Source: Arthrobacter sp. MSA 4-2 (GTDB lineage: Bacteria > Actinomycetota > Actinomycetes > Actinomycetales > Micrococcaceae). From it: a DNA stretch of 64,000 bases. Shown piece by piece: positions 14,254-35,568 of this stretch. The notes beneath the pieces are model-generated. The model was not told the origin of the DNA. It was given only the letters and a program-made list of their open reading frames with translations, and did not search any database. The DNA lies in assembly GCF_016405885.1 (NCBI RefSeq), contig NZ_JAEKGC010000016.1:1-64000 (forward strand), read 5' to 3'. The first letter of the stretch is position 1. Every line of letters starts with the position of its first letter. The position numbers and the translations under genes are program-made.

Positions 14254-15246
14254 TTGATCTCTGTTCCTTTGTCCATCCTCGACCTGGCACACATCCCGAG
14301 GGGAGGCACGGCTGCCGGAAGCCTCGCCTCGAGCGTGCGGCTGGCGCAGAGCGCGGAGAAGTGGGGGTACCGGAGGATCTGGTACGCCGAGCACCACAAC
14401 CTGAGCAGCATCGCCTCCTCCGCGACAAGCGTGCTGATCGCCCACGTCGCCGCGGCCACCACCAGCATCCGGTTGGGATCCGGCGGAATCATGCTGCCGA
14501 ACCATTCACCCCTGACGATCGCCGAACAGTTCGGGACCCTCGAGACGCTCCACCCGGGCCGGATCGACCTCGGCCTGGGCCGCGCACCGGGAAGTGACGG
14601 GAACACGATGCGGGCCCTGCGCCGCGATCCCGCCGCCGCCGACACATTCCCGCAGGACGTCCTCGAACTCCAGGGCTACCTCTCCGGTGATACGCGCATC
14701 CCGGGAGTCCACGCCACGCCCGGACGCGGGACGAACGTTCCCCTGTACATCCTTGGATCCTCGCTGTTCGGGGCGGGCCTCGCCGCGGCACTTGGGCTGC
14801 CCTACGCATTCGCCTCCCACTTCGCCCCGGCGGCGCTCCGGGAGGCTGTGGCGTTGTACCGGCGGGAATTTCAGCCCTCCGCCCAGCTCGAGCAGCCCCA
14901 CGTCATCGCCGGCCTCAATGTTCTTGCGGCCGATACCGAGGATGAGGCGCAGGACCAGTTCCGAGAGGGCCAGCGGAGGATGGCCGAGCTGCTGCTCGGC
15001 CGCGGCCGTGCCTTCACCCCGGAGGAGGCCGATGCGCTCCTTGCCTCTCCGGGAGGCCAGCAGGTGGCGCAGATGTTCACCTACTCGGCCGTGGGGACCC
15101 CGCCCCAGGTGCAGGACTACCTCGAAGGCTTCACCAAGCACGCCGATGCCGATGAACTGATTATCGCCACGAGGGCGAGTTCCGAAGCGGCCTGGCTGCG
15201 CTCTTTCGAGCTGGTTGCAGGCCTTGCGCGGCCGGTGGCCGCCTGA
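14254..15246 (+). CDS. LLM-class flavin-dependent oxidoreductase (MsnO8-like)
   Basis: This 330-residue luciferase-like monooxygenase begins [15 protein letters not shown], followed by the conserved [26 protein letters not shown] and [13 protein letters not shown] blocks of the MsnO8 subgroup. It probably uses reduced FMN or F420 to oxidise a small molecule; the substrate is unknown. The start is a TTG at 14254 with a GAAGG box upstream; no ATG or GTG in frame fits the conserved N-terminus better. It stands alone between the antiporter and cspA and differs clearly from the two CE1758-type LLM proteins at 22 kb and 31 kb. Confidence 0.88.
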
Positions 15247-22159: not shown

Positions 22160-23242
22160 TCAGGCGGCCGTGACGGAGCCGGGCTTGCGGGTCGTGTGGA
22201 CCGGCTTGTCGGGGACGTGCGCGGGGCGGCGCTTGGCGAACTCCGCCCGCAGTTCGGGGAGGACAAGTTCGCCGAAGAGGTCGAGCTGGTTCAGCACCGT
22301 CTTCAGCGGCAGGCCCGCGTGGTCGATGAGGAACAGCTGGCGCTGGTAGTCGCCGAAGTATTCCTGGAACGAGAGAGTCTTTTCGATGACCTCCTGCGGG
22401 CTGCCGACCGTCAGCGGAGTCTGGGCCATGAAGTCCTCCATCCGCGGACCGTGGCCGTAGACCGGGGCGTTGTCGAAGAACGGGCGGAACTCCTTGATCG
22501 CGTCCTGGGACCTCCGGGCCATGAAGAACTGGCCACCGAGGCCCACGATCGCCTGGTCGGCGGCGCCGTGGCCGTAGTGGGCGTAACGCTCACGGTAGAG
22601 CCCGATCAGCTGCTGGTAGTGCTCCTTGGGCCAGAAGATGTTGTTCGCGAAGAACCCGTCGCCGAAGTAGGCGGCGATCTCGGCGACCTCCGGGGTGCGA
22701 ATGGAACCGTGCCAGACGAAGGGGGCCACGCCGTCGAGCGGGCGCGGGGTTGAGGTGAAGTTGCGCAGCGGGGTGCGGAACTTGCCCTCCCAGTTCACGA
22801 CGTCGTTGTCCCACAGCTGGCGCAGCAGGTTGTAATTCTCAATGGTGAGCTCGACGCTGTCCTGCTGGTTCTTCCCGAACCAGGGGTAGACCGGCCCCGT
22901 GTTGCCGCGCCCAAGGATCAGGTCGACCCGGCCGTCGGCCAGGTGCTGCAGGGTGGCGAAGTCCTCGGCGATCTTCACCGGGTCGTTCGTGGTGATCAGC
23001 GTGGTGGACGTCGAGAGCTTGATCCGCTCGGTCTGGGCGGCGATGTAGCCGAGAATCGTCGTCGGGGAGCTGGCGTAGAAGGGCGGGTTGTGGTGCTCGC
23101 CGGTGGCATAGACGTCCATGCCGATCTCTTCGACCTTCTTGGCGATGGCGACGGCTGCCTTGATGCGCTCGCCCTCGGCGGGGGTCTTGCCGGTAAGCGG
23201 GTTGCGGGTGACATCACTGACTGTGAAAACGCCGATTTCCAT
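22160..23242 (-). CDS. CE1758-type FMN-dependent luciferase-like monooxygenase, copy 1
   Basis: This 360-residue bacterial-luciferase-fold enzyme belongs to the subgroup I recall as the CE1758 family: IGVFTVSDVT at the N-terminus, ATGEHHNPPFYASSPTT, STSTTLITTNDPVKIAEDFA, GRGNTGPVYPWFGK, and the late LPLKTVLNQLDLFGE block. It would use FMNH2 supplied by a reductase to oxygenate a small organic substrate, not yet defined. It is the last gene of a run on - that includes an MFS carrier and DoxX (69 bp from the MFS stop). A closely similar second copy lies at 30.6-31.6 kb next to a matching FMN reductase. Confidence 0.92.
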   Translation of the reverse strand: MEIGVFTVSDVTRNPLTGKTPAEGERIKAAVAIAKKVEEIGMDVYATGEHHNPPFYASSPTTILGYIAAQTERIKLSTSTTLITTNDPVKIAEDFATLQHLADGRVDLILGRGNTGPVYPWFGKNQQDSVELTIENYNLLRQLWDNDVVNWEGKFRTPLRNFTSTPRPLDGVAPFVWHGSIRTPEVAEIAAYFGDGFFANNIFWPKEHYQQLIGLYRERYAHYGHGAADQAIVGLGGQFFMARRSQDAIKEFRPFFDNAPVYGHGPRMEDFMAQTPLTVGSPQEVIEKTLSFQEYFGDYQRQLFLIDHAGLPLKTVLNQLDLFGELVLPELRAEFAKRRPAHVPDKPVHTTRKPGSVTAA

Positions 23243-23311
23243 GATTTTTCTCCAAAGGGTGGTGCTGGTTTCTGAGGGGGTGGTTTCTGTGCGGCGCGGG
23301 CGCCGGAGGGT

Positions 23312-24502
23312 TCAGGCGGTTCCGCGCGGTGACCGGCGGTTGACGAGCCAGGCCGCGGCGGCCAGGGCCATCACGACGGCGATCACGAGAGTGGTTCCCG
23401 TAGTGAGCCCAAGGGGGCCGGTGAGGGCGCCGATCGAGAGGACCGGGATGGCCAGGCCGCTCTGGGCGGCGATGAAGTAGGCCGCGACACTCTTGGCGTG
23501 GCTCTCGTGCGGTACAGCGCGCGCGAGCTGGCCCAGGCCTCCCATGAAGGTGAGGCCGGCGCCGAACCCGCCGATGACCGTGCCAAGCCCGAACACTCCG
23601 AGGTTTCCGGTGAGGAACCCGGTGAGCACGAGGGCGAGGGCCGCGATCAGCAGGGGAAGCCCGCGGAGGATTGACCACCGGGGATCCTTTCCGCGGAACA
23701 CGAGCTGGGCGATCACGCCGATCTCAAAGAGGATGAAGGTCGCAAGCCCGGCGATCGCGAGGTTGTGCACGTCGAGGGTCTGCGAGATGAAGCGCGGGGT
23801 CAGGCTCGAGAACAGGCCCAGCAGGGTGAACGTCGGAATGACGGCGACCGCCGACCTGCCGTAGATTCCCCGCGCGGAGCGGGGCACTCCGACCCGCGGC
23901 GCCCAGTTGATCTTGCCGGCCGTGCGCGGATGGGTTTCGGGAACGAAGAACGTCAGCAGGAACACCAGGGCCACAAGTGCGCCGAAGACGATGAAGATCA
24001 GGGCCGTCGGTGCCGGCAGGTACTGGGCGAAGACACCCGCGACGAGCGGGCCAAGGCCTAGGCCGCCCATATTGGCGGCGGTCGAGATCATCGAGGGGAA
24101 CGCCTTGTTCTTCCCGCGGTACAGCTCGGCCAGGGCGGCCGTCGCGGCGGAAGTCATCAGTCCCACACCGAATCCGCTGAGGAACCGGCCGGCAAGGAGC
24201 ATCGGCACGTTCCCGGCGAAGAGGAAGAACAGGGTGGAGGCGAGGGTCAGCGCCAGGGCGGCGAAGGCCAGCGGCCTGCGGCCCACCTGGTCGGAGAGGC
24301 CCCCGAAGAAGATCAGTGCGAGAAGCGTGCCCAGGACGTAGACGGCGAAGACCGAGGTAGTCGTCCCGGCGCCGAACCCGAACTCATCGCCCCACAGGGT
24401 ATAGAGGGGGATGGGCAGGGTTCCGCCGGTGGTCATCAGGGCGAAGGTCGCGGCGATGATTGCGAATGAGGCTGGGTGTTTGGTCTGGGGTAGCCGGGCC
24501 AT
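23312..24502 (-). CDS. MFS transporter, 12-helix drug/metabolite type
   Basis: This 396-residue major-facilitator protein has about 12 helices. The loop motif between helices 2 and 3 reads GGLSDQVGRRPLAF, the classic MFS motif A. An acidic/basic central loop (FFVPETHPRTAGKI) separates the halves. It is likely an exporter or importer for the compound handled by the adjacent monooxygenase. Its start lies directly at the DoxX stop (1-bp gap), so the two genes are coupled, and the LLM gene follows 69 bp later. Confidence 0.9.
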   Translation of the reverse strand: MARLPQTKHPASFAIIAATFALMTTGGTLPIPLYTLWGDEFGFGAGTTTSVFAVYVLGTLLALIFFGGLSDQVGRRPLAFAALALTLASTLFFLFAGNVPMLLAGRFLSGFGVGLMTSAATAALAELYRGKNKAFPSMISTAANMGGLGLGPLVAGVFAQYLPAPTALIFIVFGALVALVFLLTFFVPETHPRTAGKINWAPRVGVPRSARGIYGRSAVAVIPTFTLLGLFSSLTPRFISQTLDVHNLAIAGLATFILFEIGVIAQLVFRGKDPRWSILRGLPLLIAALALVLTGFLTGNLGVFGLGTVIGGFGAGLTFMGGLGQLARAVPHESHAKSVAAYFIAAQSGLAIPVLSIGALTGPLGLTTGTTLVIAVVMALAAAAWLVNRRSPRGTA

Positions 24503-24503
24503 G

Positions 24504-25022
24504 TCAGATGTGCCTTTGGTCGGGTCGGTTTACTGGTGCGGTGTGGAGCAGGACTCGAACGATGAGACCGGAGGCTGCACCTACAAGAGTTGTGAGGATG
24601 CCTACCCAGAGGGGCAGGAGGTCAATGCCCAGGAGGGCATCCACGGAGAGGGCGCCCGGACCGGTGAGGCTGAGCGCGCCGGCAATGGTGATGAGCACCA
24701 GCGGGTACTCATATCCGTCGTGTTGGACCCATAGGCCGTTGGCGGCTTTGACCGTCAGCGCGACGGTCATCACCCCAATGGCCGCCATGCCCGCAAGCGG
24801 GGTAAGGAGACCGGAAGCGAGAAAGAGGCCGGACCCGAGCTGGCCTAGGCCCGCGGCGAGTGCCGTAGAGGCACCGCCGCGGAATCCATCGGCGCGGAAC
24901 TCGCGGATGCCGCCTTGAAGTCCTGAGCCTCCCAGCCGGAAGGAAATCTTCTGCAGCCCGTGGGCGGCGATCAACAGTCCGATCACCACGCGCAGCAGCA
25001 GGATTCCAATATCGGCATTCAT
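24504..25022 (-). CDS. DoxX-family membrane protein
   Basis: This 172-residue DoxX/DoxD-like protein has four helices: ILLLRVVIGLLIAAHGLQKI, ALAAGLGQLGSGLFLASGLL, AAIGVMTVALTVKAANG, and a C-terminal pair. The AHGLQKISFRLGG and GLWVQHDGYEYPLVLITIA blocks are typical. DoxX proteins occur in thiol/redox stress complexes and in many catabolic operons with unclear roles. Here it sits between YcaC-like and MFS genes, in line with a quinone- or membrane-linked helper of the flavin-enzyme pathway. Confidence 0.9.
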   Translation of the reverse strand: MNADIGILLLRVVIGLLIAAHGLQKISFRLGGSGLQGGIREFRADGFRGGASTALAAGLGQLGSGLFLASGLLTPLAGMAAIGVMTVALTVKAANGLWVQHDGYEYPLVLITIAGALSLTGPGALSVDALLGIDLLPLWVGILTTLVGAASGLIVRVLLHTAPVNRPDQRHI

Positions 25023-25076
25023 GATCCGGTCTCTTTCGTCGTCTTACCTAATTACCTGGGGTGGTCGTCGTGCTTC

Positions 25077-25104
25077 GGCTGACCGGCCACTGGGCCGGTC
25101 AGCC
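25077..25104 (-). terminator. Hairpin terminator after the YcaC-like gene
   Basis: A perfect 12-bp stem (25077-25088 with 25093-25104, GGCTGACCGGCC) closes an ACTG loop. It lies in the 153-bp gap between the YcaC-like stop and the DoxX start. No T-run is seen, so it may attenuate rather than end transcription and lower expression of the three genes beyond it. Confidence 0.65.
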
Positions 25105-25175
25105 GTGCTGCTTTCGTCGGGTGAATCGTCGATCAGGTGGCCTTCCAGCTGGATGACTCTCAGCCGGGGGGCTGT

Positions 25176-25841
25176 TTAGCCGGCGTTTCCGCCGATGAAG
25201 TCACCGGCGTAGTGCATGCCCAGGCCGTAGGTTCCGCCGTGGGCCTTGACGACCTCGGTGACGGGGATGTAGGTCTCGCTGCGGGCCCAGTCGCGCTGGA
25301 GTTCGAGCAGGACCTGGATCCATGTCACGGGGACGGCGCCGGCGCGGGTCATGCGCTCCATGGCGTTGTCGTGGGCTTCCTTGGTGACTCCGCCGGAGGC
25401 GTCGGAGACGACGTAGACCTCGTAGCCCTGGCCCAGCGCGGAGAGCGCGGGGAGGACGAGGCAAACCTCGGTCCACAGGCCCGACAGGACGATCTTGGTG
25501 CGGCCGGTGGCCTTGATGGCCTCGACGACGCGCTCGTCTTCCCAGGCGTTCATGCTGGAACGGTCGATGATCTCCTGGTCCGGGAACACCGCGGCCAGGT
25601 CCGGCAGGATGTTGCCGGAGAAGGACTGCGCGGCCACGGTGGTCAGGATCGTGGGCACGTTGAAGGCCTTGGCGGACTTGGCAAGGCCGACGGTGGCGTT
25701 GATGATCGAGGTGCGGTCTCCGCTGCCGACGCCGAAGAACATCTGGGGCTGGTGGTCAACGAAGAGGAACACGCTGTTGTCCGGCGTGAGCAGGTCGTCA
25801 CTGGGGGTGGCGGTGACGTTGGCGAAATCGATGGTGGTCAT
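25176..25841 (-). CDS. YcaC-like isochorismatase-fold hydrolase
   Basis: This 221-residue cysteine hydrolase is of the YcaC branch of the isochorismatase-like superfamily. The triad is visible as Asp29 (FVDHQ), Lys116 (GRTKIVLSG) and Cys127 (WTEVC), with the YcaC-typical PTILTTVAA and SDASGGVTKEAHDNAMERM segments. Family members cleave amides or imides, but the YcaC substrate remains unknown. I chose ATG 25841, which has AAAGGAA nine bases upstream, and the conserved fold begins soon after. The amidohydrolase gene lies 78 bp upstream on the same strand, so two C-N hydrolases may act in sequence. Confidence 0.9.
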   Translation of the reverse strand: MTTIDFANVTATPSDDLLTPDNSVFLFVDHQPQMFFGVGSGDRTSIINATVGLAKSAKAFNVPTILTTVAAQSFSGNILPDLAAVFPDQEIIDRSSMNAWEDERVVEAIKATGRTKIVLSGLWTEVCLVLPALSALGQGYEVYVVSDASGGVTKEAHDNAMERMTRAGAVPVTWIQVLLELQRDWARSETYIPVTEVVKAHGGTYGLGMHYAGDFIGGNAG

Positions 25842-25919
25842 TTCTTCTTTTCCTTTGTGCTGGTTCCTGCTGAATGCCGTGCGAATGATTTCGTACAGAC
25901 TTTTCTTATTCATGGGGGC

Positions 25920-27812
25920 TTAGTGCGCGTGCGTTTCGAACGCGTTGTCGGCAATGGTGAGGGTGGTGCCGTACCGGGCCGCGCGCCACTGCCTCTGCTG
26001 CTCGGACTCGGCTGCCGCCTGGGCGAGCAGTTCGGCCTGGCGGCCTCCGGCCATCGAGGGCTTGGGGGTCGCCTGGTATCCGCCGTAGTGGGCCACCGGG
26101 CTCCACAGCGGGGACACCCTGGGCATTTCCTCGTCCTGGCCCTCGTAGTCTCCGGCCGCGTACACGATCCGGCCGCCGACGACGGTGAACAGGGACTCGA
26201 TGTGCGGAATATCCCGCTCCTCGACGGCGAAGAAGTCGTCCGAGAGGATCGAGAGGTCTCCGTAGAAGCCTTCCCGCAGGACGCCCTTCACGTTGTCCTC
26301 GCCCGTGAGCTTGGCACCGGCGACAGTGAACATTTCGAGTGCCTGCTCGCGGCTCACACGGTTCTCGGGCGGGTAGATGAGGGTGTCCCCGACCGTCCGT
26401 CCGGAAACCAGCCAGTGCAGGGCAACCCAGGGGTTGTAGGAGGAGACGCGGGTGGCGTCGGTTCCTGCGCCGACGACGAGTCCGCGGTCGAGCATCTTGC
26501 GGATCGGCGGGGCTTCGGCTGCCGCGCCGGCGCCGTAGCGCTGGACGAAGGCCTCACCCTGGAAGGACATGCGGTTCTGGATGGAGAGCGCTCCGCCGAG
26601 GGCCGCGACCCGGTCGAGGCTTCGGCCGCTGATCGTCTCGGCGTGGTCGAAGATCCACCGGTTGCCGCCGGGGAACAAGCCCTCGGCGGCAAGCTTTTCG
26701 AAGACCGCGAGGTCCCGCTCGATGGTCTCGTTGTAGGTGGCGTGGAGGCGGAAGCCCCAGCCGTTCTCCATCATGAGGCGGACGGCCTTCTCGAACTCAA
26801 CCTCGTAGTCGGGTGAGAGCTCGGGACGCGGTTCGGTGAAGTTCTCGAAGTCGCCGGCGGCCCAGGTGAGGTTCTCACCGGCGCCGTTGAGGCGGAGCCA
26901 CTCGTCGCCGTCGCCGGGGCGGACCGTCTCGGTCCAGCGGCGGAGATCGTCGACTTCCTGTCCGGCGACCTGCGGGAAGAGGTGGTAGGCGATGCGGAGG
27001 GACAGCTTGCCCTCGTTCGCCAGGTCCATCACCGTCCGGTAGTTATCAGGGAAGTTTTGGAACCCACCGGCCGCGTCGATGGCGGAGGTCAGGCCGAACC
27101 GGTTCAGTTCCCGCAGGTACTGGCGGGTCGAATCCTTGCGTTCCTCGGGGGGCAGCAGCGGAGCCTTGGCCAGGGTCGAGTAGAGCACCAGTGCGCTTGG
27201 AGCGGCGAGGAGGAGTCCTGTGGGCTCGCCGTCCCGCCCGCGGACGATCTGGCCGCCCTTGAAGTCGGGCGTCTCCCTGGAATAGCCCGCGGCCAGAACC
27301 GCGGCGCGGTTCAGCAGCGCGGAGGAGTAGAGGTTGAGGATGAACACCGGGGTGTCGGGGGCTGCCGCGTTGAGCTCGGCGAGGGTGGGAAGGCGCTTCT
27401 CGGCGAACTGCTCCTTCGTGAAACCGCCAACCACGCGGACCCACTGGCCCTTCGGAGTGCGGGCCGCCTGCTCGCGGAGCATCTGCATCGCCAGCTTCAA
27501 GGTGGGCACTCCGTCCCAGCGCAGCTCGAGGACGTAGTTGAGTCCACCTCGGATGACGTGGAGGTGGGAATCGTTGAGTCCGGGAACGACCCGGCGGTTC
27601 TGAGCGTCAACGACCTTGGTGTTCGGCCCGGCAACCTTGGCGATATCGGCATCGTCCCCGACGACCGTGACCTTTCCATTCCGGATGGCGACGGCGGTCG
27701 CCTGCCGGCGTGCCGGATCACCGGTGAAGATCTTGCCGTTTCGAACAATGAGATCAGCGGGTTCGACCGCATCTGCACGGGGGGCGATCCCGGCTACAGG
27801 CATTGTGGGCAT
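25920..27812 (-). CDS. YtcJ-like metal-dependent amidohydrolase (Amidohydro_3)
   Basis: This 630-residue enzyme has the beta-sandwich start DLIVRNGKIFTGDP and the metal-binding HxH of the TIM barrel (GLNDSHLHV, His83 and His85). Later barrel-strand residues include FRLHATYNE, RWIFDHAETI and the Asp in VVGAGTDATR; the C-terminal sandwich follows (GFYGDLSILSDDFFAVEE). YtcJ-like enzymes hydrolyse amides, esters or lactams, so the substrate is open. Start ATG 27812 has GGAGG upstream; a second ATG three codons in is also possible. It is the first gene of a run on - leading to YcaC, DoxX, MFS and LLM. Confidence 0.9.
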   Translation of the reverse strand: MPTMPVAGIAPRADAVEPADLIVRNGKIFTGDPARRQATAVAIRNGKVTVVGDDADIAKVAGPNTKVVDAQNRRVVPGLNDSHLHVIRGGLNYVLELRWDGVPTLKLAMQMLREQAARTPKGQWVRVVGGFTKEQFAEKRLPTLAELNAAAPDTPVFILNLYSSALLNRAAVLAAGYSRETPDFKGGQIVRGRDGEPTGLLLAAPSALVLYSTLAKAPLLPPEERKDSTRQYLRELNRFGLTSAIDAAGGFQNFPDNYRTVMDLANEGKLSLRIAYHLFPQVAGQEVDDLRRWTETVRPGDGDEWLRLNGAGENLTWAAGDFENFTEPRPELSPDYEVEFEKAVRLMMENGWGFRLHATYNETIERDLAVFEKLAAEGLFPGGNRWIFDHAETISGRSLDRVAALGGALSIQNRMSFQGEAFVQRYGAGAAAEAPPIRKMLDRGLVVGAGTDATRVSSYNPWVALHWLVSGRTVGDTLIYPPENRVSREQALEMFTVAGAKLTGEDNVKGVLREGFYGDLSILSDDFFAVEERDIPHIESLFTVVGGRIVYAAGDYEGQDEEMPRVSPLWSPVAHYGGYQATPKPSMAGGRQAELLAQAAAESEQQRQWRAARYGTTLTIADNAFETHAH

Positions 27813-27917
27813 ATCTGCCCACCTCCAATCGACTTACTAACGTGTTCGCTCGGACCGTGGCGGTCCGGGTGCGGTGTGTACAACTTCGCTTCCATATAAT
27901 TTATTTCCACGGAAGAT

Positions 27918-27931
27918 GTTTGCCCGCAAAC
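27918..27931. promoter_or_regulatory. Perfect palindrome upstream of the amidohydrolase operon
   Basis: GTTTGCCCGCAAAC is a perfect 14-bp palindrome about 105 bp in front of the amidohydrolase start. It lies next to an AT-rich patch (27893-27906) that could hold the promoter. It could bind a dimeric regulator. It does not match the TGTG-N3-GGCAAC motif found around 30-32 kb. Confidence 0.35.
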
Positions 27932-27980
27932 GGGCGGGACGCCGGTCGATCGGGCACGGCTTCCGAGCGGGTCCGGGCAG

Positions 27981-28016
27981 AAAAAAGACGCAGCCGGGGA
28001 GCCCGACTGCGTCTTC
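27981..28016 (-). terminator. Rho-independent terminator of the 14-helix MFS gene
   Basis: Read on -, AAGACGCAG pairs with CTGCGTCTT around a GC-rich inner stem and is followed by a run of six T. It lies 19 bp past the stop of the MFS gene at 28035. Confidence 0.9.
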
Positions 28017-28034
28017 TGGAGGAAACGGCTCCGC

Positions 28035-29744
28035 TTAGCCGATCGGTTTGGACCGCGGCCCAGAAGTGACCTGCCTTACTCGGCCGTCCGAGGGGTCCGT
28101 GTCCGGTGCGGAGGCATCAGTGGCCGGTCCTGACGGATCCGCGTCCCGTGCGGAGGGATCTGGTGCTGCCGGGGGTGCGGCGGCCGGAGCCTGAATGTCA
28201 ACGGTGGATCGCAGCGAGGTTTCCCGAATGAACAGCACGCTGAGCAGGGCTAGGACAGCGATGGCGGCGGTGATCAGGAAGATCAGGGCAGTGCTTTCCC
28301 CATAGGCGGCCCGAATGATGTCGCCCACCGGTGCGGGCAGTCCGGCCGGATCGGGCGAACCGCCGGCTGCTCCGGAGGGATCGGAGGGGAGTCCGGCAGC
28401 CCGGAGGCCTTCCGCCGTCCGCGCCGCTGTCGAGTTGCCGAGGACGGCCCCCAGAGCGGCGACGCCGGCAGCGCCACCGATGGTGCGGAAGAACGCCACC
28501 GATGCGCTGGCGGAGCCTACATCCTTCAGTGACACCGTATTCTGCACGGCGAGCACGAGGTTCTGCATCAGCATTCCGAGGCCCAGCCCGAAGAGGAAGA
28601 TGAAGCTTCCGACGAACCAGAGGCTGGTGAGCTCGTCGATGGTGCCCGCGAGGGCGAGCCCGAGGATCAGCAGGACCGACCCGCCGACAAGGAAGCGCTT
28701 CCACCGCCCGAAGCGGGTGATCAGCTGCCCCGAGGTGACCGAACCGATCAGGTTGCCGGCGATCATGGGGAGCGTCAGCAGGCCGGCGTCGGTAGCGGTG
28801 AAGCCGCGTGCCACCTGGTAGTACTGGCCCAGGTAGGTCGTTGAAGCGAACAGAGCGACTCCCACGGCGAGGGAGGCGATGATTGCCAGGGCGGTGGTGC
28901 GCTCGGTGATGATCTTCAGGGGGATCACCGGCTCGGCGGCCTTCGACTCCACGAGGACCAGCAGGCCCAGGAGCAGGATGCTGCCGCCGACCATCAGCCC
29001 GCTCTGCCAGGAGACCCACCCGAAGGTGTTCTCCTTGCCGACGAAGGAGACCCAGATCAGCAGGGTGCTCACTCCCGCCGTCAGGAGGATCGAGCCAAGC
29101 CAGTCAATCGTGACCCGGCGGGCGGTGGAGGAGAGCCGAAGCGTCAGCTGGAGCAGGAAGAGGGCGGTCACTGCCAACGGCACGACGATGAAGAAGGTCC
29201 AGCGCCAGCCCAGGGGCGAGTCCACGATAACGCCGCCCAGCAGCGGCCCGGCCGCAGTCGCGGCGGCGATGACCCCGCCGAGGTACCCCGAATAGCGTCC
29301 CCGTTCCCTGGGCGAGACCATGGCGCCGATGATCGCCATCGACACGGCGGTCAGACCGCCCATCGCTATACCCTGGATGGCGCGGCCCGCCAGCAGGACC
29401 GGGATGGTCGACGCGAATCCCGCAAGCACCGAGCCCGCCACGAAAACGACGATGCTCAGCTGCACCAGGAGCTTCTTGTCGAACAGGTCCGCCAGCTTTC
29501 CCCAGAGAGGAGTGGTCACCGCGCCGGCGAGCAGGGCGGCGGTGATGACCCATGCGAAGTCGGTCTGTGAGCCGTTGAGGTCCGCAATGATGGCCGGGAG
29601 AGCGTTGGCCACGATGGTGCTGCTGAGGATCGCCGTGAAGAGTCCGGCGAACAGGCCGGTGAGCGCCTGCAGGACCTGCCGCTGGGACATTGCGGCACCT
29701 GCCTGCGGCGGCGGGGTGGGGGAGGGAGCTGGGGGAGGTGTCAT
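28035..29744 (-). CDS. MFS transporter, 14-helix DHA2 (EmrB/QacA) type
   Basis: This 569-residue carrier has 14 predicted helices and DHA2 motifs: NGSQTDFAWVITAALLAGAV, WGKLADLFDKK (motif A) and GGLTAVSMAIIGAMVSPRERGR followed by GPLLGGVIVDSPLGWRW (motif C region). The C-terminal 50 residues are a disordered Pro/Ala/Ser/Asp tail with repeated DPS/DAS groups. The family exports drugs or toxic organics using the proton gradient. The FMN reductase lies 46 bp upstream on -, so the carrier may be co-expressed with the flavin enzymes. Confidence 0.92.
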   Translation of the reverse strand: MTPPPAPSPTPPPQAGAAMSQRQVLQALTGLFAGLFTAILSSTIVANALPAIIADLNGSQTDFAWVITAALLAGAVTTPLWGKLADLFDKKLLVQLSIVVFVAGSVLAGFASTIPVLLAGRAIQGIAMGGLTAVSMAIIGAMVSPRERGRYSGYLGGVIAAATAAGPLLGGVIVDSPLGWRWTFFIVVPLAVTALFLLQLTLRLSSTARRVTIDWLGSILLTAGVSTLLIWVSFVGKENTFGWVSWQSGLMVGGSILLLGLLVLVESKAAEPVIPLKIITERTTALAIIASLAVGVALFASTTYLGQYYQVARGFTATDAGLLTLPMIAGNLIGSVTSGQLITRFGRWKRFLVGGSVLLILGLALAGTIDELTSLWFVGSFIFLFGLGLGMLMQNLVLAVQNTVSLKDVGSASASVAFFRTIGGAAGVAALGAVLGNSTAARTAEGLRAAGLPSDPSGAAGGSPDPAGLPAPVGDIIRAAYGESTALIFLITAAIAVLALLSVLFIRETSLRSTVDIQAPAAAPPAAPDPSARDADPSGPATDASAPDTDPSDGRVRQVTSGPRSKPIG

Positions 29745-29790
29745 GGTGCTGCCTTAGATGGGAGTGGGGTGCGCGTTGGGGGCGAGCCGA

Positions 29791-30408
29791 TCAGCCGGCG
29801 GCCCGATCGAGGAGTTCTTGGAATGGAACCGGGTCCTGGCCGGTCCGAAAAGTGCGTGGAGAATTGCGGAGTACTCCGCCGAGCTCCCGGGCTGCGCGGT
29901 GGATCCGCTGTTCCAAGGGTTGAATTGACGCCTCGCCGGAGCCCCAGTCCTCGGGGGAGGCGTATACGCCGGTGGGGACGACGACCGCCCGGAGGTAAGT
30001 GAACAGGGGGCGCATCGCGTGCTCGAGCATCAGGGCATGGCGGGCGCTCCCACCGGTGGCGCCCATCAACACCGGCATCCCCTCCAGTGCAGCGGGGTCC
30101 AATACATCGAAGAACGACTTCAGCAGGCCGCTGTAGGAGCCGGAAAAGACAGGACTGACAACGAGAAGGGCGTCGGCGCGGGTCAGACGATCGACGACAG
30201 AGGCTAGCGCAGGCGCGGGAAAGCCGGTGAGAAAGTTGTTGGCGATGTCCACGGCGTAGTCCCGCAGTTCCACCGCTTCGACTTCCACGGGCAGGTTGGG
30301 GGATGCCAATTCCGCCCGAACCGCATCGGCCAGTTGATCGGCGAGCATCCGGCTGGAGGACGGAACCCCCAGGCCTGCGGACACTGCCAGGATTCTTTGC
30401 GTAGTCAT
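29791..30408 (-). CDS. CE1759-type NAD(P)H-dependent FMN reductase, partner of the LLM monooxygenase
   Basis: This 205-residue flavodoxin-like reductase begins RILAVSAGLGVPSSSRMLAD, the phosphate-binding loop of the family, and continues with SPVFSGSYSGLLKSFFDVLD and VLMGATGGSARHALMLEH. It matches the subgroup I recall as CE1759, which is named for pairing with CE1758-type luciferase-like monooxygenases. It should reduce FMN to FMNH2 for them. It is divergent from LLM copy 2, with 210 bp between the two starts, and each side of that gap carries one copy of the TGTG-N3-GGCAAC-N-TAAA motif. Co-regulation of the two enzymes is therefore likely. Confidence 0.92.
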   Translation of the reverse strand: MTTQRILAVSAGLGVPSSSRMLADQLADAVRAELASPNLPVEVEAVELRDYAVDIANNFLTGFPAPALASVVDRLTRADALLVVSPVFSGSYSGLLKSFFDVLDPAALEGMPVLMGATGGSARHALMLEHAMRPLFTYLRAVVVPTGVYASPEDWGSGEASIQPLEQRIHRAARELGGVLRNSPRTFRTGQDPVPFQELLDRAAG

Positions 30409-30432
30409 TCGAACTCTCCTTTACCTCAATCT

Positions 30433-30450
30433 TTTATGTTGCCGGGCACA
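30433..30450 (-). promoter_or_regulatory. Shared operator-like motif, copy A (FMN reductase promoter)
   Basis: On - this reads TGTGCCCGGCAACATAAA, matching TGTG-N3-GGCAAC-N-TAAA. It lies 25-42 bp in front of the FMN reductase start, so a bound protein would overlap the promoter or leader. Confidence 0.65.
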
Positions 30451-30533
30451 TATCTACAACCGGCCCCGCAACGGTTCCATTCCCCGGCATGCCGCCGGTG
30501 GACGGGGGAATAGCCGGGCACGTCCGGCAGTTG

Positions 30534-30551
30534 TGTGGTTGGCAACCTAAA
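30534..30551 (+). promoter_or_regulatory. Shared operator-like motif, copy B (LLM copy 2 promoter)
   Basis: TGTGGTTGGCAACCTAAA matches TGTG-N3-GGCAAC-N-TAAA and contains the palindrome GGTTGGCAACC. It lies 68-85 bp in front of the LLM copy 2 ATG. Confidence 0.65.
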
Positions 30552-30618
30552 TTCGGAACCAGAAACGCCCAACACCCGGCAACGGCCCCGGTGTCGGCGC
30601 CCACTAGATGGAGGAATC

Positions 30619-31641
30619 ATGCAGATCGGTATTTTCAGCGTCGGCGACCGCACGGCGGATCCCGCAACGGGCAGGCCTCCGACGGAGCGTGAACGCATTA
30701 AGGGAACGGTTGAGATAGCGCTCCGTGCGGAGCAGGCAGGCCTCGATGTGTTTGCGACCGGTGAACACCACATTCCGCCGTATGTCACCTCGTCGCCCAC
30801 GACGCTCTTGAGCTATATCGCCGCCAAGACCAGTACCCTCCACCTGTCCACCTCGACCACCCTGATCACCACCAACGATCCTGTGAAGGTCGCCGAGGAT
30901 TACGCCATGCTCCAGCACCTTGCCGACGGCCGCCTCGACCTGATGCTCGGCCGCGGTAACAGCGGGCCCGTCTATGGGTGGTTCGGCAAGGATTCACGCA
31001 AGGGTGTCGACCTGGCGATCGAAAACTATGCGCTGCTGCGGAGGCTGTGGGATGAGGACCGGGTGACCTGGAGTGGAAAGTACCGCACGCCGCTGCAGAA
31101 CTTCACCTCCACTCCCCGCCCGTTGGGCGGTGCCGCACCCTTTGTCTGGCACGGCTCGGTGAAGACTCCCGAGATAGCCGAGCAGGCCGCCTACTACGGC
31201 GATGGCTTCTTTGCGAACCACATCTTCGGCCCGCCGCAGCACACTGCCCGGATGGTCGGCCTGTACCGCGAACGGTTCGAGCACTACGGGCATGGACGTG
31301 CAGACCAGGCCATCGTGGGCCTTGGAGCGCACGCGTTCATCCGGAAGAACTCCCAGGACGCCGTCCGGGACTTCCAGCCCTACTTCGACAATGCCCCAAT
31401 GTTCCCGGGGGGCTCGGCCATGGGGGACTACATGGCGCAGACCCCAACCATCGCCGGCAGTCCCCAGCAGGTGATCGAGAAGACTCTGTCTTTCCGGAAC
31501 TACGCCGGAAATTTCCAGCGCATCCTGTTCGCCCTGGAAATCGGGGGAGTGCCGCTGGAGACCACCCTTGAGCAGATCGACCTGCTCGGGGAGTACGTGG
31601 TACCCGAGCTCCGGAAGGAGCTCACCTCGGGCGCGGCCTGA
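30619..31641 (+). CDS. CE1758-type FMN-dependent luciferase-like monooxygenase, copy 2
   Basis: This 340-residue enzyme is closely similar to the copy at 22 kb: IGIFSVGDRTADP, TGEHHIPPYVTSSPTT, STSTTLITTNDPVKVAEDYA, GRGNSGPVYGWFGK, NFTSTPRPLGG, DQAIVGLG and PLETTLEQIDLLGE. It lacks the 20-odd residue basic C-terminal tail of copy 1. I chose ATG 30619, which follows GGAGGA at ideal spacing. FMNH2 would come from the divergently encoded reductase. The two copies differ around the active-site face (PYV/PFY, HIFGPPQHTA/NIFWPKEHYQ), so they may have different substrates. The OYE gene follows after a 281-bp gap with its own motif copies. Confidence 0.93.
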   Translation: MQIGIFSVGDRTADPATGRPPTERERIKGTVEIALRAEQAGLDVFATGEHHIPPYVTSSPTTLLSYIAAKTSTLHLSTSTTLITTNDPVKVAEDYAMLQHLADGRLDLMLGRGNSGPVYGWFGKDSRKGVDLAIENYALLRRLWDEDRVTWSGKYRTPLQNFTSTPRPLGGAAPFVWHGSVKTPEIAEQAAYYGDGFFANHIFGPPQHTARMVGLYRERFEHYGHGRADQAIVGLGAHAFIRKNSQDAVRDFQPYFDNAPMFPGGSAMGDYMAQTPTIAGSPQQVIEKTLSFRNYAGNFQRILFALEIGGVPLETTLEQIDLLGEYVVPELRKELTSGAA

Positions 31642-31706
31642 AGGCGTTGATGCTGTGGCCGCAAGTTCTGGTCTTCGACCTGGTTGGGGAATAATCCGCA
31701 CACCAG

Positions 31707-31736
31707 ATCCGCTATACATGTGGCTGGCAACGTAAA
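31707..31736 (+). promoter_or_regulatory. Shared operator-like motif, copy C (distal OYE site)
   Basis: ATCCGCTATACATGTGG leads into TGTG-N3-GGCAAC-N-TAAA at 31719-31736. The whole 30-bp unit recurs 99 bp downstream as copy D with three mismatches. It lies 187-216 bp upstream of the OYE start. Confidence 0.65.
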
Positions 31737-31805
31737 CAATCACCGGCACACTCCGACTCGAAGCCATTCCCGGCCCCGCAGGCCTGGGAATATCTCCGAA
31801 ACCTT

Positions 31806-31835
31806 ATCCGCTATACATGTGGTCGGCAACCTAAA
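31806..31835 (+). promoter_or_regulatory. Shared operator-like motif, copy D (proximal OYE site)
   Basis: This is the second copy of the 30-bp unit, sharing ATCCGCTATACATGTGG with copy C. The TGTG-N3-GGCAAC-N-TAAA core is at 31818-31835, 88-105 bp in front of the OYE ATG, a distance similar to copy B before LLM copy 2. Confidence 0.65.
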
Positions 31836-31922
31836 TGGAAGCCGCCGCCCTCGATCCACCGCCCCAGCGGCCTAAGGGCCGCAAACTCCGCAGCACCGAC
31901 ACCTAATGATTGGACAAATATC

Positions 31923-32993
31923 ATGACGAGCCTCTGGGATCCCATCTCCTTCGGCAACATCTCGCTGAACCACCGCCTCGCGATGGCTCCGATGACCCGC
32001 AGCCGGGCGATCGACGACGGCACGCCCGGGCCGCTGACGGCCGAGTACTACACCCAGCGGGCCTCCCTGGGCCTGCTGATCACGGAAGGTGTCCAGCCTT
32101 CGGATGACGGCCAGGGCTACCTGAACACCCCAGGCATCTACACCGACGCCCACGTTGAGGGCTGGCGTGAAGTGACCACCGCCGTGCACGAAGCCGGCGC
32201 CTCGATGTTTCTGCAGCTGATGCACGCCGGGCGGATGTCACACCCCGACAACACCCCCCACCACCGCACCGCGGTGGCCCCGTCGGCCATCGCTCCGGGC
32301 GTTCCGATGTTCACTCGGACCGGAGCGCAGGACATCCCCACGCCCCGGGAGCTGAGCGTTGAGGAAATTGCCGCCACAGTGCAGGACTTCCGCACCGCGG
32401 CCGCGGCCGCCATCCGTGCCGGGGCCGACGGCGTCGAACTCCATGGTGCCAACGGATACCTCCTGCAGCAGTTCTTCGCCCCCAACGCGAATGTGCGCAC
32501 GGATCAGTACGGGGGATCGATTGAGAACCGCGCCCGCTTTGCCCTCGAGGTCGCCCGCGGCGTTGCCGAGGAGATCGGCGCCGAGCGCACCGGCATCCGC
32601 CTCTCCCCGGGCCTGACCCTTGGTGGACTGGATGAGGGCCCCGAGTCGGCCGATCTCTACCGTTACCTCGTCGGTGAACTGGCCAAGCTCGACCTGGCCT
32701 ACGTGCACGTGCTGCACATCGGCGATGAGGACCTGCTGCGTGACATCCGGGCCGCCTTCCCCAATACGCTGCTGGTGCTGCGTGCCGGACGGGCCCGTGA
32801 AGACGTGGCAGTTGACGTTGAGGCCGGGCTGGCCGACATCGCCCCGATTGCTTCCTGGGCCCTTGCCAATCCGGATGTCGTCGAGCGCCTTCGGACGGGT
32901 GCTGAGCTCAATGAGGGCAACCCGGCAACGTACTACGGTGGCGGTGCCGCCGGTTACACCGACTACCCCGTGCTGGAACCAGTCGGCAAGTAA
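31923..32993 (+). CDS. Old Yellow Enzyme family ene-reductase (NADH:flavin oxidoreductase)
   Basis: This 356-residue FMN-containing TIM-barrel enzyme begins LWDPISFGNISLNHRLAMAPMTRSR. Substrate-binding His174 and Asn177 are present in VELHGANGYLLQQFF, with the Q-containing LQLMHAGRMSHP and the barrel motif GGSIENRARF. Such enzymes reduce activated C=C bonds, nitro groups or nitrate esters with NAD(P)H. The ATG start is at 31923; a good Shine-Dalgarno sequence is not obvious. The gene follows LLM copy 2 and is probably expressed from its own promoter through the paired 30-bp repeats. A MarR gene follows it. Confidence 0.95.
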   Translation: MTSLWDPISFGNISLNHRLAMAPMTRSRAIDDGTPGPLTAEYYTQRASLGLLITEGVQPSDDGQGYLNTPGIYTDAHVEGWREVTTAVHEAGASMFLQLMHAGRMSHPDNTPHHRTAVAPSAIAPGVPMFTRTGAQDIPTPRELSVEEIAATVQDFRTAAAAAIRAGADGVELHGANGYLLQQFFAPNANVRTDQYGGSIENRARFALEVARGVAEEIGAERTGIRLSPGLTLGGLDEGPESADLYRYLVGELAKLDLAYVHVLHIGDEDLLRDIRAAFPNTLLVLRAGRAREDVAVDVEAGLADIAPIASWALANPDVVERLRTGAELNEGNPATYYGGGAAGYTDYPVLEPVGK

Positions 32994-33042
32994 TCCCAAA
33001 GCGGACTCACAGGCGCGGGGGTGCCGGTGGATGCGCATCGAT

Positions 33043-33070
33043 GGGTGGAGGGGCTTCGGCCTCTCCACCC
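33043..33070 (+). terminator. UUCG-capped terminator hairpin after the OYE gene
   Basis: GGGTGGAG pairs with CTCCACCC, and an inner GGGC/GCCT stem closes a TTCG tetraloop, giving a 12-bp stem. It starts 50 bp after the OYE stop. There is no strong T-run, only GTTGGTCTTC. Confidence 0.7.
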
Positions 33071-33284
33071 GTTGGTCTTCACCCGTCGGTCCTCCAGCAG
33101 GGCATCGTTCCCGGGACCCCTGGGCGGCTAGCGCCTTGGCGGCCAGGTCCTGCCCTCGACGGCCTCCGCCGTCCGGGCACCCCGCCCGGGGGAATGCTAG
33201 GGTTGACCCGCTTGGGTGCGGGTGGCCCGGCCTGCTGTGCCGCCCCAGCTCCCGCATTCGGACAACGAACCAAAGGCAGCAATC

Positions 33285-33743
33285 GTGAAATCCCCGAACG
33301 GATCTGTGGAGACCCAGTCCTCCATAGCGAGCGACTTTCCCGCCAGCTGGGCGATCTACAGCCTGGCCCGTTCGCACCGGGCACTGGCCGCGTCAATGCT
33401 CGCGGAACTTGGGCTTTTTCCCAGTCAGGAGCTGATCCTGATGCAGCTGTGGGATGAGGATGGCCAGTCCCAGAAGGCCCTTGGCCAGACCCAGCGCTTC
33501 GACCATTCCACAATCGCCAAGTCCGTGCGCCGTTTGGAAACCGCGGGCCTGGTCCGGCGGGAAAAATCCAGCGTCGACGGCAGAGTCACCCTCGTCTTCC
33601 TCACCGATGCGGGACAGGCTCTCAAGGACCGTACCCTCGGAATCTGGGAAGAACTCGAACGCAAGACCGTGCAGAGCCTCACGGCCGAGGAGCAGGCGCA
33701 GCTTGTCGCCCTCGCACGCAAGATCATTCCTGACCTCGAATAG
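33285..33743 (+). CDS. MarR-family transcriptional regulator 1
   Basis: This 152-residue winged-helix dimer has the core KALGQTQRFDHSTIAKSVRRL followed by the wing REKSSVDGRVTLVFLTDAG, which carries the conserved Asp-Gly-Arg. The start is GTG 33285 after AAAGG; the frame continues upstream, but without coding character. MarR proteins typically bind palindromes near their own or neighbouring flavin-enzyme genes and release them on binding a phenolic or quinone-like ligand. It is the best candidate for the TGTG-N3-GGCAAC-N-TAAA sites upstream, though no clear copy of that motif stands in front of its own gene. Confidence 0.9.
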   Translation: MKSPNGSVETQSSIASDFPASWAIYSLARSHRALAASMLAELGLFPSQELILMQLWDEDGQSQKALGQTQRFDHSTIAKSVRRLETAGLVRREKSSVDGRVTLVFLTDAGQALKDRTLGIWEELERKTVQSLTAEEQAQLVALARKIIPDLE

Positions 33744-34319: not shown

Positions 34320-35088
34320 ATTTTCCTAACGGCCGGAGGCGGCATTGTTAATTTTGCGGCGGGGGTATATTTACGAACCGGGCCGCTCTTTCTTTTCCAG
34401 CCTATCCCGCCGAACCTCCCGGTAGCCGTCGAAAAGGTGAATATCGTCCTCTGGAAGTAGGAATGTCATCCAAAGTGCTGAGGGCCGCGCGGGCGTGCTG
34501 TTTGGATGAGGTGACCGCTGCCACTGCCGGAGGAGTAGGGACGTCGCCGGCCTGCCGATTGGCCCCGTGTCGGCTGACCGGGATCGAGGCAATCATCGGA
34601 GCGTGGAACTCCAACCGGAACACGGAACACTGATCTGACCAGAGAATACTGCTCCGAGCCCGAGCGCTGATCCGAACACCTCGAATAGGTGGCACGGAAT
34701 GCGTGAGAAGTTGGATTTGCTTCTCCAGCCCGCTGATTATTCCAAAAAATGCATTTCCGCCGGCTGGCCGGCAATAGCAATATGTCTCACGATAAGTTCA
34801 ACTGATGCGACTACCGTGCCCAACAGTGGTCGATGAGGTGATTCCCAGCAGTTATTGCGCCTGCTTTGAATCTGCCAGCTTCTTTTCTCCGACGGGCTCC
34901 TTTTGCCGGCATGTTCCTTCTGCCGGCACGTTCCTTCCGTCGCACGTTCCTTCCGCCGCGCCCGCGACCGCCAGCAGCTGGTTCCGCGGCGGACGTGGGG
35001 AGCCACCCGGTCATCCGCGGTTTGCTTCCGTGGAATATGCTTGCCCGAAGAAGAATTGCCGGTGGCGGCCCAGCAGGAAAGGTTCGAG
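34320..35088. other. 769-bp stretch without a convincing gene
   Basis: This gap separates the DUF4190-like gene (-) from MarR 2 (+). It is noticeably AT-richer than the flanks in places, for example around 34345-34375 and 34735-34800. Short open frames occur on both strands but have neither family motifs nor normal codon bias. It holds a short tandem array at 34904-34953 and presumably the promoter of MarR 2. It may be the remains of a lost gene or an insertion scar. Confidence 0.6.
34904..34953. repeat. Short tandem array, three 16-17 bp units
   Basis: TGCCGGCATGTTCCTTC is followed immediately by TGCCGGCACGTTCCTTC and then CGTCGCACGTTCCTTC. Unit 2 differs from unit 1 at one base and unit 3 is one base shorter. 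The core GCAYGTTCCTTC is kept in all three. The array ends 135 bp before the MarR 2 start and could be a multi-site binding array. Confidence 0.7.
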
Positions 35089-35568
35089 ATGGAATCCCGC
35101 GAAGCGAGCTCTGCACCCGTGCCCAGCGACGAGGAGGTCATTGCCGAGTGGGGCCAGGTGATCCGGGGATTCTCCGTCACCAACAAAAAGCTCCACGTGG
35201 CGGTCGCCGCAGCGTTCAACCTTGACGAACCGGAGACCGAAACCATGCTCCGCCTTGGGAGCAGCCCCCTTCGTCGGGTGCCGATGACGGTGTTGGCCCG
35301 GGAAGCTGCGTTCAGCTCGGGAGGCTTCACCAAGGTTGCGGACCGGCTGGCCCGCCGCCAGCTCGTTCAGCGTTCGCCGGGTGCGAATGACCGCCGGATC
35401 ACCTATCTCGAGTTGACCCCTGCGGGCGAGGAGATGGCCGCCGGCCTTCATCGTCTTGTGGCCGACGTCGTGCGCTCTATCTACGTCGATATCCTGGGCG
35501 CCGAGCGGGCCGCCGTTGTCGCCTCGGCCATGCGCGACCTCCGGAAGGCCCACCGCGACGTCGCCTGA
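35089..35568 (+). CDS. MarR-family transcriptional regulator 2
   Basis: This 159-residue winged-helix protein has the recognition region MTVLAREAAFSSGGFTKVADRLARRQLV and the wing RSPGANDRRITYLELTPAG. I chose ATG 35089, preceded by GGAAAGG; the conserved fold begins about 20 residues later. The third-quarter HTH and C-terminal dimer helix are intact. A neighbour on - encodes a RibD-C-like reductase. The stop codon lies in the first unit of a 14-bp tandem repeat. Its targets are unknown; it could control itself, the RibD-like gene or part of the flavin-enzyme island. Confidence 0.87.
   Translation: MESREASSAPVPSDEEVIAEWGQVIRGFSVTNKKLHVAVAAAFNLDEPETETMLRLGSSPLRRVPMTVLAREAAFSSGGFTKVADRLARRQLVQRSPGANDRRITYLELTPAGEEMAAGLHRLVADVVRSIYVDILGAERAAVVASAMRDLRKAHRDVA

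Follow-up and report, generated by a model that had tools for sequence, protein, structure and literature searches.

Do ten neighboring genes in Arthrobacter sp. MSA 4-2 encode one degradative pathway, or do they fall into parts with separate tasks? The genes lie in a 64,000-nucleotide stretch of DNA (hereafter the window) on contig C7 of a 3.59-Mb genome in 35 contigs. The original prediction, made from this sequence, read them as a possible undescribed pathway built on two paralogous CE1758-type luciferase-like monooxygenases (LLM1 and LLM2), together with a CE1759-type flavin mononucleotide (FMN) reductase, an Old Yellow Enzyme (OYE) ene-reductase, a YcaC-like hydrolase, a YtcJ-like amidohydrolase, DoxX, two major facilitator superfamily (MFS) carriers (MFSa and MFSb), and a MarR regulator (MarR-A). 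Profile searches bore out this gene content, with all ten open frames present at or near the predicted coordinates and each matching its expected family (Table 1). The enzyme classes would indeed fit oxygenation, reduction of a C=C bond or nitro group, and hydrolysis. What we consider probable is that the stretch comprises two adjacent, apparently separately controlled modules that handle foreign small molecules, probably through inducible detoxification or degradation. Judging from sequence, module A looks like the MFSb-FMN reductase pair with the divergent LLM2, OYE, and MarR-A, and module B like YtcJ-YcaC-DoxX(-MFSa-LLM1).

The conservation pattern of module B was observed directly around its amidohydrolase. 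As YtcJ loci we took the best 80 of 222 relatives, which are mostly from Streptomyces, and the 80 loci are therefore not independent of each other. A YcaC homolog was found in 75 of them (69 within 3 kb of YtcJ) and a DoxX homolog in 73 (68 within 3 kb), and both genes lay within 3 kb in 67; among the 13 loci without this close triad, several are on short contigs or have both genes farther away. The HxH, H, H, and D positions of YtcJ, the presumed metal ligands, were invariant in all 80 loci. Likewise, the Asp and Cys positions of YcaC were kept in 75 of 75 homologs; an Asp and a nucleophilic Cys are the catalytic residues in isochorismatase-like hydrolases. The presumed catalytic residues of both hydrolases are thus intact. 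MFSa follows the triad in only five loci, all from Micrococcales (L042, L043, L045, L046, and L104), and is itself followed by LLM1 in L042 and L043. Across the family, YtcJ was detected in one of 197 genomes at an E value of 1e-150 (strain MSA 4-2 only) and, across the order, in two of 297 genomes at 1e-200, and it is common in Streptomyces and relatives. On plasmids, YcaC homologs (49 to 67% identity) lie near YtcJ homologs (55 to 74%) in Streptomyces, Acinetobacter, Azotobacter, and Niveispirillum, where the annotated neighbors include DUF1427, DoxX, and an MFS carrier (Niveispirillum), DUF1427 (Acinetobacter), and an alpha/beta hydrolase and a monooxygenase (Azotobacter). Two further observations concern YtcJ loci: genes often lying within 5 kb of the triad in Streptomyces encode alpha/beta hydrolases, an AraC regulator, a ferritin-like (Dps-like) protein, DUF1275, and an MFS_3 carrier, and a YtcJ homolog from another family of the order (61%; G399:C1:1359362-1361200) contains one in-frame TGA and is possibly decaying.

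The two hydrolases can be placed in known families. Over 167 aligned residues, YcaC keeps the Asp and Cys positions of the YcaC hydrolases 1yac and 4wgf, but its 154.6 bits against the NF041461 equivalog cut-off of 310 make it a homolog rather than an equivalog. N-substituted formamide deformylase is a YtcJ-like Amidohydro_3 enzyme. With it and with the bile salt hydrolase BwBSH1, YtcJ shares PF07969 with HxH, H, H, and D, a likeness drawn by family and not by direct comparison; no close solved relative of YtcJ with a known substrate was found. BwBSH1 is counted among the YtcJ-like Amidohydro_3 enzymes in the accessible part of its description (PMC13081902).

As for control of module B, elements resembling ATCTTYCNNSGAAATA occur upstream of YtcJ in L042, L043, L044, and L046, and neither the Streptomyces loci nor L104 showed the full ATCTTYCNNSGAAATA before YtcJ. 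A second motif, the palindrome AGTGCACT, is enriched upstream of YtcJ (20 of 80 loci, compared with 14 of 1,600 control pieces). A further regulator, MarR-B, which contains no cysteine, stands beyond the ten-gene stretch; it had no Pfam match at 1e-5 and was named from its homologies and by eye. Its homologs (40 to 45%) directly adjoin the YtcJ module in L046, L047, L048, and L104, and MarR-B is likely the best candidate regulator of module B.

Module A is set apart by a shared promoter element. The 18-bp TGTGSNYGGCAACNTAAA has four exact copies in the window, one each in the FMN reductase and LLM2 promoters and two in the OYE promoter, where 0.01 would be expected at up to 2 mismatches; elsewhere in the genome there was no exact copy, a single one at 1 mismatch, and four at 2, and the reversed control pattern gave two. 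The element recurs with the genes in relatives. Arthrobacter crusticola (L043), which with an uncultured Arthrobacter metagenome-assembled genome (MAG; L042) is a near relative (long parts collinear with the window, 92 to 94% DNA identity), has two copies at up to 1 mismatch, both in the OYE promoter. MAG G198, which has the same genes as the window split over two contigs, has three, all in its island, and a fourth there with 2 mismatches. Genome G159, from another genus of the family, has three, all in a module-A-like island of MarR (76%), OYE (79%), a short-chain dehydrogenase/reductase (SDR), LLM2 (85%), and a divergent FMN reductase (65%). Between the window and G159, the two sites of the LLM2/FMN reductase promoter keep 34 of 36 bases, compared with 72 of 174 in the flanks. 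An unbiased test of the island's intergenic DNA also recovered four 18-mers within 3 mismatches, a result matched by none of 400 simulated promoter sets. At up to 1 mismatch, a scan of the family gave 31 sites in 21 of 197 genomes, eight of them in strain MSA 4-2 and G159, and the reversed pattern gave 19 sites in 16 genomes; the matches elsewhere in the family look like background, and nine other element-bearing stretches (L172 to L180) contain none of the ten window proteins. MarR-A was found in two of the 197 genomes at 1e-35, both of which carry the element, and the adjacent MarR-A would be its most economical reader.

The two monooxygenases also have separate origins. Both score above the curated TIGR04036 cut-off of 479.1 bits, as does the reductase above that of TIGR04037 (175.9 bits), and two-component monooxygenase activity is predicted for them; LLM2 and the reductase are divergent neighbors, a frequent arrangement of CE1758/CE1759 pairs elsewhere. 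LLM1 and LLM2 share 64% identity across 335 residues. The suggestion that they differ mostly around substrate-contact loops did not hold, as the 119 differing positions show no clear clustering (window variance P = 0.053) and track family-variable columns. Fifteen differences, including N52I and F55Y, which closely follow the GEHH motif, fall at nearly invariant columns (entropy <0.15), and there it is LLM2 that departs from the family consensus at 13 and LLM1 at 2. LLM2 shares nine of its 13 deviant residues with its G198 and G159 counterparts, and it is therefore the changed enzyme of the two. In a 60-row family tree, LLM2 sits on a long branch in a clade with the G198 and G159 copies (support 100/100), and LLM1 clusters with the family core copies, including the genome's own (87/96, under the strict level). 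The two are therefore not sister duplicates, and local duplication of one LLM into two was rejected.

The LLM1 copies at the corresponding place in A. crusticola and MAG83 are 99% identical, and 184 of the 197 family genomes have a CE1758 LLM at 1e-100, five of them in more than one copy. Strain MSA 4-2 has three, the third (G000:C3:93214-94275) with a MarR and then an SDR gene behind it. In the 30 best-scoring family matches, taken as core-LLM loci, the LLM has beside it a MarR sharing ≥49% identity with that regulator in 18 and an FMN reductase in 9. The genome also contains a second CE1759 FMN reductase (G000:C5:13767-14360; 65% to that of the window), and the window a further LLM-class gene outside the ten-gene stretch (14254-15246) with a weak CE1758 match (47.7 bits). 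A deeply divergent further clade of CE1758-type LLMs, 56 to 57% identical to LLM2, is present in two Arthrobacter relatives (G197:C2:335345, L141; G198:C37:11436, L142).

The OYE of module A is unusual as well. Its nearest solved chain is glycerol trinitrate reductase 5epd, and it aligns with the glycerol trinitrate and pentaerythritol tetranitrate reductases (5epd and 1vyp) over query residues 2 to 350 with the HGANGYL segment kept; in contrast, the FGRPFI of typical OYEs (5epd) reads IASWAL near residues 305 to 320. At 313 bits against a cut-off of 403, it also falls short of N-ethylmaleimide reductase. The same IASWAL occurs in the OYEs of A. crusticola (L043) and G198 (L143), and IGSWAL in that of G159 (L171). 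The Gly-Arg of the FGR segment belongs to the FMN-phosphate site, with the Arg as a phosphate ligand; FMN binding by an OYE lacking it is therefore uncertain, and members of this subfamily may bind flavin differently. MFSb scores 186 bits with TIGR00711, under the cut-off of 230; its gene stands behind the FMN reductase in G198 too and was not found in the G159 stretch.

Several points weigh against two separately controlled modules. The element was first read from these promoters, and its count in the window is therefore partly circular; at 4 mismatches, 13 of 400 simulations also give four sites, and repeating the unbiased test with 5 or 6 mismatches allowed gave no significant result (17 and 4 of 60 simulations, respectively). 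No copy was seen in MarR-A's own promoter region, and the single-mismatch copy elsewhere in the genome (G000:C12:19530-19547) precedes an ABC transporter ATPase gene by ~220 bp and might mark an additional MarR-A target. MarR-B is ~7 kb from the YtcJ start here, and its role therefore rests on other genomes. Finally, LLMs recur near YtcJ, and modules A and B may therefore be chemically linked.

This last point bears on the single pathway first proposed, in which OYE, both LLMs, YcaC, and YtcJ would act sequentially on one aromatic or heterocyclic amide-type compound. Part of that idea stands: the ten genes fit within 12 kb, one promoter element is common to half of them, G198 has the same genes, and outside Micrococcales 14 of the 56 fully flanked loci have a CE1758 LLM no more than 10 kb from YtcJ, compared with 0.37% expected from the copy numbers in ten selected genomes (12 counted, two Arthrobacter excluded). 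Kinship among the loci inflates this enrichment; the side and orientation of the LLM vary, which argues for repeated association, and YtcJ of Subtercola (L044) is adjoined by an LLM and an FMN reductase gene in divergent orientation. It is therefore plausible that the oxygenase-hydrolase link recurs, and LLMs with hydrolases may be a recurring theme, but no such recurrence emerged for the ten-gene set. Beside YtcJ in the 80 loci, OYE and MarR-A were each found once and MFSb never, a distribution on which one conserved ten-gene pathway was rejected, and TGTGSNYGGCAACNTAAA is not in front of the module B genes. The modules also come apart in relatives: A. crusticola, at an otherwise collinear locus, lacks window segment 28067-31656 (MFSb-FMN reductase-LLM2) and retains module B, OYE, MarR-A, and both element copies of the OYE promoter, and YtcJ was not found in the 19 kb examined around the module-A-like set of G159. 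Together with the separate tree branches of the LLMs, these patterns leave a pathway founded on two paralogous LLMs unsupported. We consider a single pathway unlikely; at the level of sequence, conservation and co-regulation fail for the ten genes together and are not refuted for either module.

It could also be asked whether both modules are parts of a general oxidative or electrophile stress response, with OYE, FMN reductase, DoxX, and YcaC-type proteins clearing quinones, peroxides, or reactive chlorine products under a redox-sensing MarR. RosR of Corynebacterium glutamicum is reportedly an H2O2-sensitive MarR that represses putative monooxygenase and FMN reductase genes, a combination similar to the one here, where control by MarR-A is predicted. 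A ferritin-like (Dps-like) gene lies within 5 kb of the Streptomyces triad (29 of 81 loci by clustering, the window included), and katG is behind YtcJ in Azotobacter. Against these likenesses, cysteine is absent from MarR-A, its A. crusticola and G159 orthologs, and MarR-B, which leaves no thiol switch of the OhrR or RosR kind in the two regulators; the one Cys in the G198 MarR-A stretch is in a divergent N-terminal part, probably before the true start. MarR-A is also under the OhrR cut-off (71 versus 200 bits), and a scan of the window for the RosR site, TTGTTGAYRYRTCAACWA, gave nothing at up to 3 mismatches. We therefore rejected a thiol switch like that of RosR or OhrR; cysteine-based redox sensing is not supported for either MarR, and the lack of cysteine in MarR-A points to ligand sensing. 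We regard a general stress response as improbable. The peroxide response of RosR itself is given in the accessible parts of two reports (PMC5401885 and PMC6306002).

A chance neighborhood of mobile detoxification genes that gathered at one site and are functionally unconnected both between and within modules would suit the patchy distribution of YtcJ and MarR-A in the family and the presence or absence of a segment between near relatives, but it is very improbable given an element kept across genera despite diverged flanks and a triad kept in 67 of 80 loci.

If two modules are indeed controlled separately, MarR-A would repress module A by binding the 18-bp element before OYE, LLM2, and the FMN reductase-MFSb pair until released by a small ligand. 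OYE would then reduce an activated C=C bond or a nitro group, the FMN reductase would deliver FMNH2 to LLM2 for an oxygenation, and MFSb would presumably export the substrate or product. In module B, which would probably be under its own regulator, MarR-B, the YtcJ amidohydrolase and the YcaC cysteine hydrolase would cut a bond of the amide, ester, or a related type; DoxX and MFSa would be at the membrane, and LLM1 would serve as an optional oxygenase.

Table 1. Genes and predicted regulatory elements of the two putative modules (window coordinates)
Feature	Position	Strand	Match or remark	Module
LLM1, CE1758-family FMN-dependent monooxygenase	22160..23242	-	TIGR04036, 651.7 bits	B (end)
MFSa carrier	23312..24502	-	PF07690	B
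DoxX	24504..25022	-	PF07681	B
YcaC-like isochorismatase-fold hydrolase	25176..25913	-	PF00857, 102.7 bits; true start perhaps 25841	B
YtcJ-like metal-dependent amidohydrolase	25920..27812	-	PF07969, 378.4 bits	B
Upstream element ATCTTYCNNSGAAATA	27902..27917	-	one window match at up to 2 mismatches	B
MFSb, DHA2-type efflux carrier (predicted)	28035..29744	-	PF07690, 168 bits	A
CE1759-family FMN reductase	29791..30408	-	TIGR04037, 259.9 bits	A
Operator-like element, FMN reductase promoter	30433..30450	-	exact TGTGSNYGGCAACNTAAA	
Operator-like element, LLM2 promoter	30534..30551	+	exact TGTGSNYGGCAACNTAAA	
LLM2, divergent CE1758-family monooxygenase	30619..31641	+	TIGR04036, 577.3 bits	A
Operator-like element 1, OYE promoter	31719..31736	+	exact TGTGSNYGGCAACNTAAA; exact in A. 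crusticola too	
Operator-like element 2, OYE promoter	31818..31835	+	exact TGTGSNYGGCAACNTAAA; exact in A. crusticola too	
OYE-family ene-reductase	31923..32993	+	PF00724, 251.2 bits	A
MarR-A, MarR regulator without cysteine	33216..33743	+	PF01047; true start perhaps 33285	A
MarR-B	34903..35568	+	beyond the ten-gene stretch; open frame longer than the likely gene	

Searches of the open-access literature, a scope that leaves most subscription journals outside, uncovered no publication dealing with CE1758/CE1759 proteins or with the triad, no CE1758/CE1759 member with a known substrate, and no substrate for the triad; in line with the original prediction, no characterized pathway with this set turned up either. 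Among the matches listed, the sole paper naming "CE1758" concerned Escherichia ruysiae (PMC10434276).

The three genes of the triad stay together in several actinobacterial genera, and homologs of YcaC and YtcJ are neighbors on proteobacterial plasmids. A bolder extension, which we hold only tentatively and think doubtful, is that YtcJ-YcaC-DoxX forms the core of an undescribed, widespread pathway hydrolyzing one class of soil or plant metabolites, repeatedly joined by a CE1758/CE1759 monooxygenase that would prepare the bond for cleavage; in the Arthrobacter-type lineage, a neofunctionalized LLM2 and an unusual OYE would have been added under control of a MarR that senses a ligand, and the pathway would thereby have gained a new compound. 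Altered at otherwise conserved sites, LLM2 and OYE may act unlike known enzymes. Beside the triad, the compact regulon defined by the element would make the ligand of its MarR a direct handle on the chemistry.

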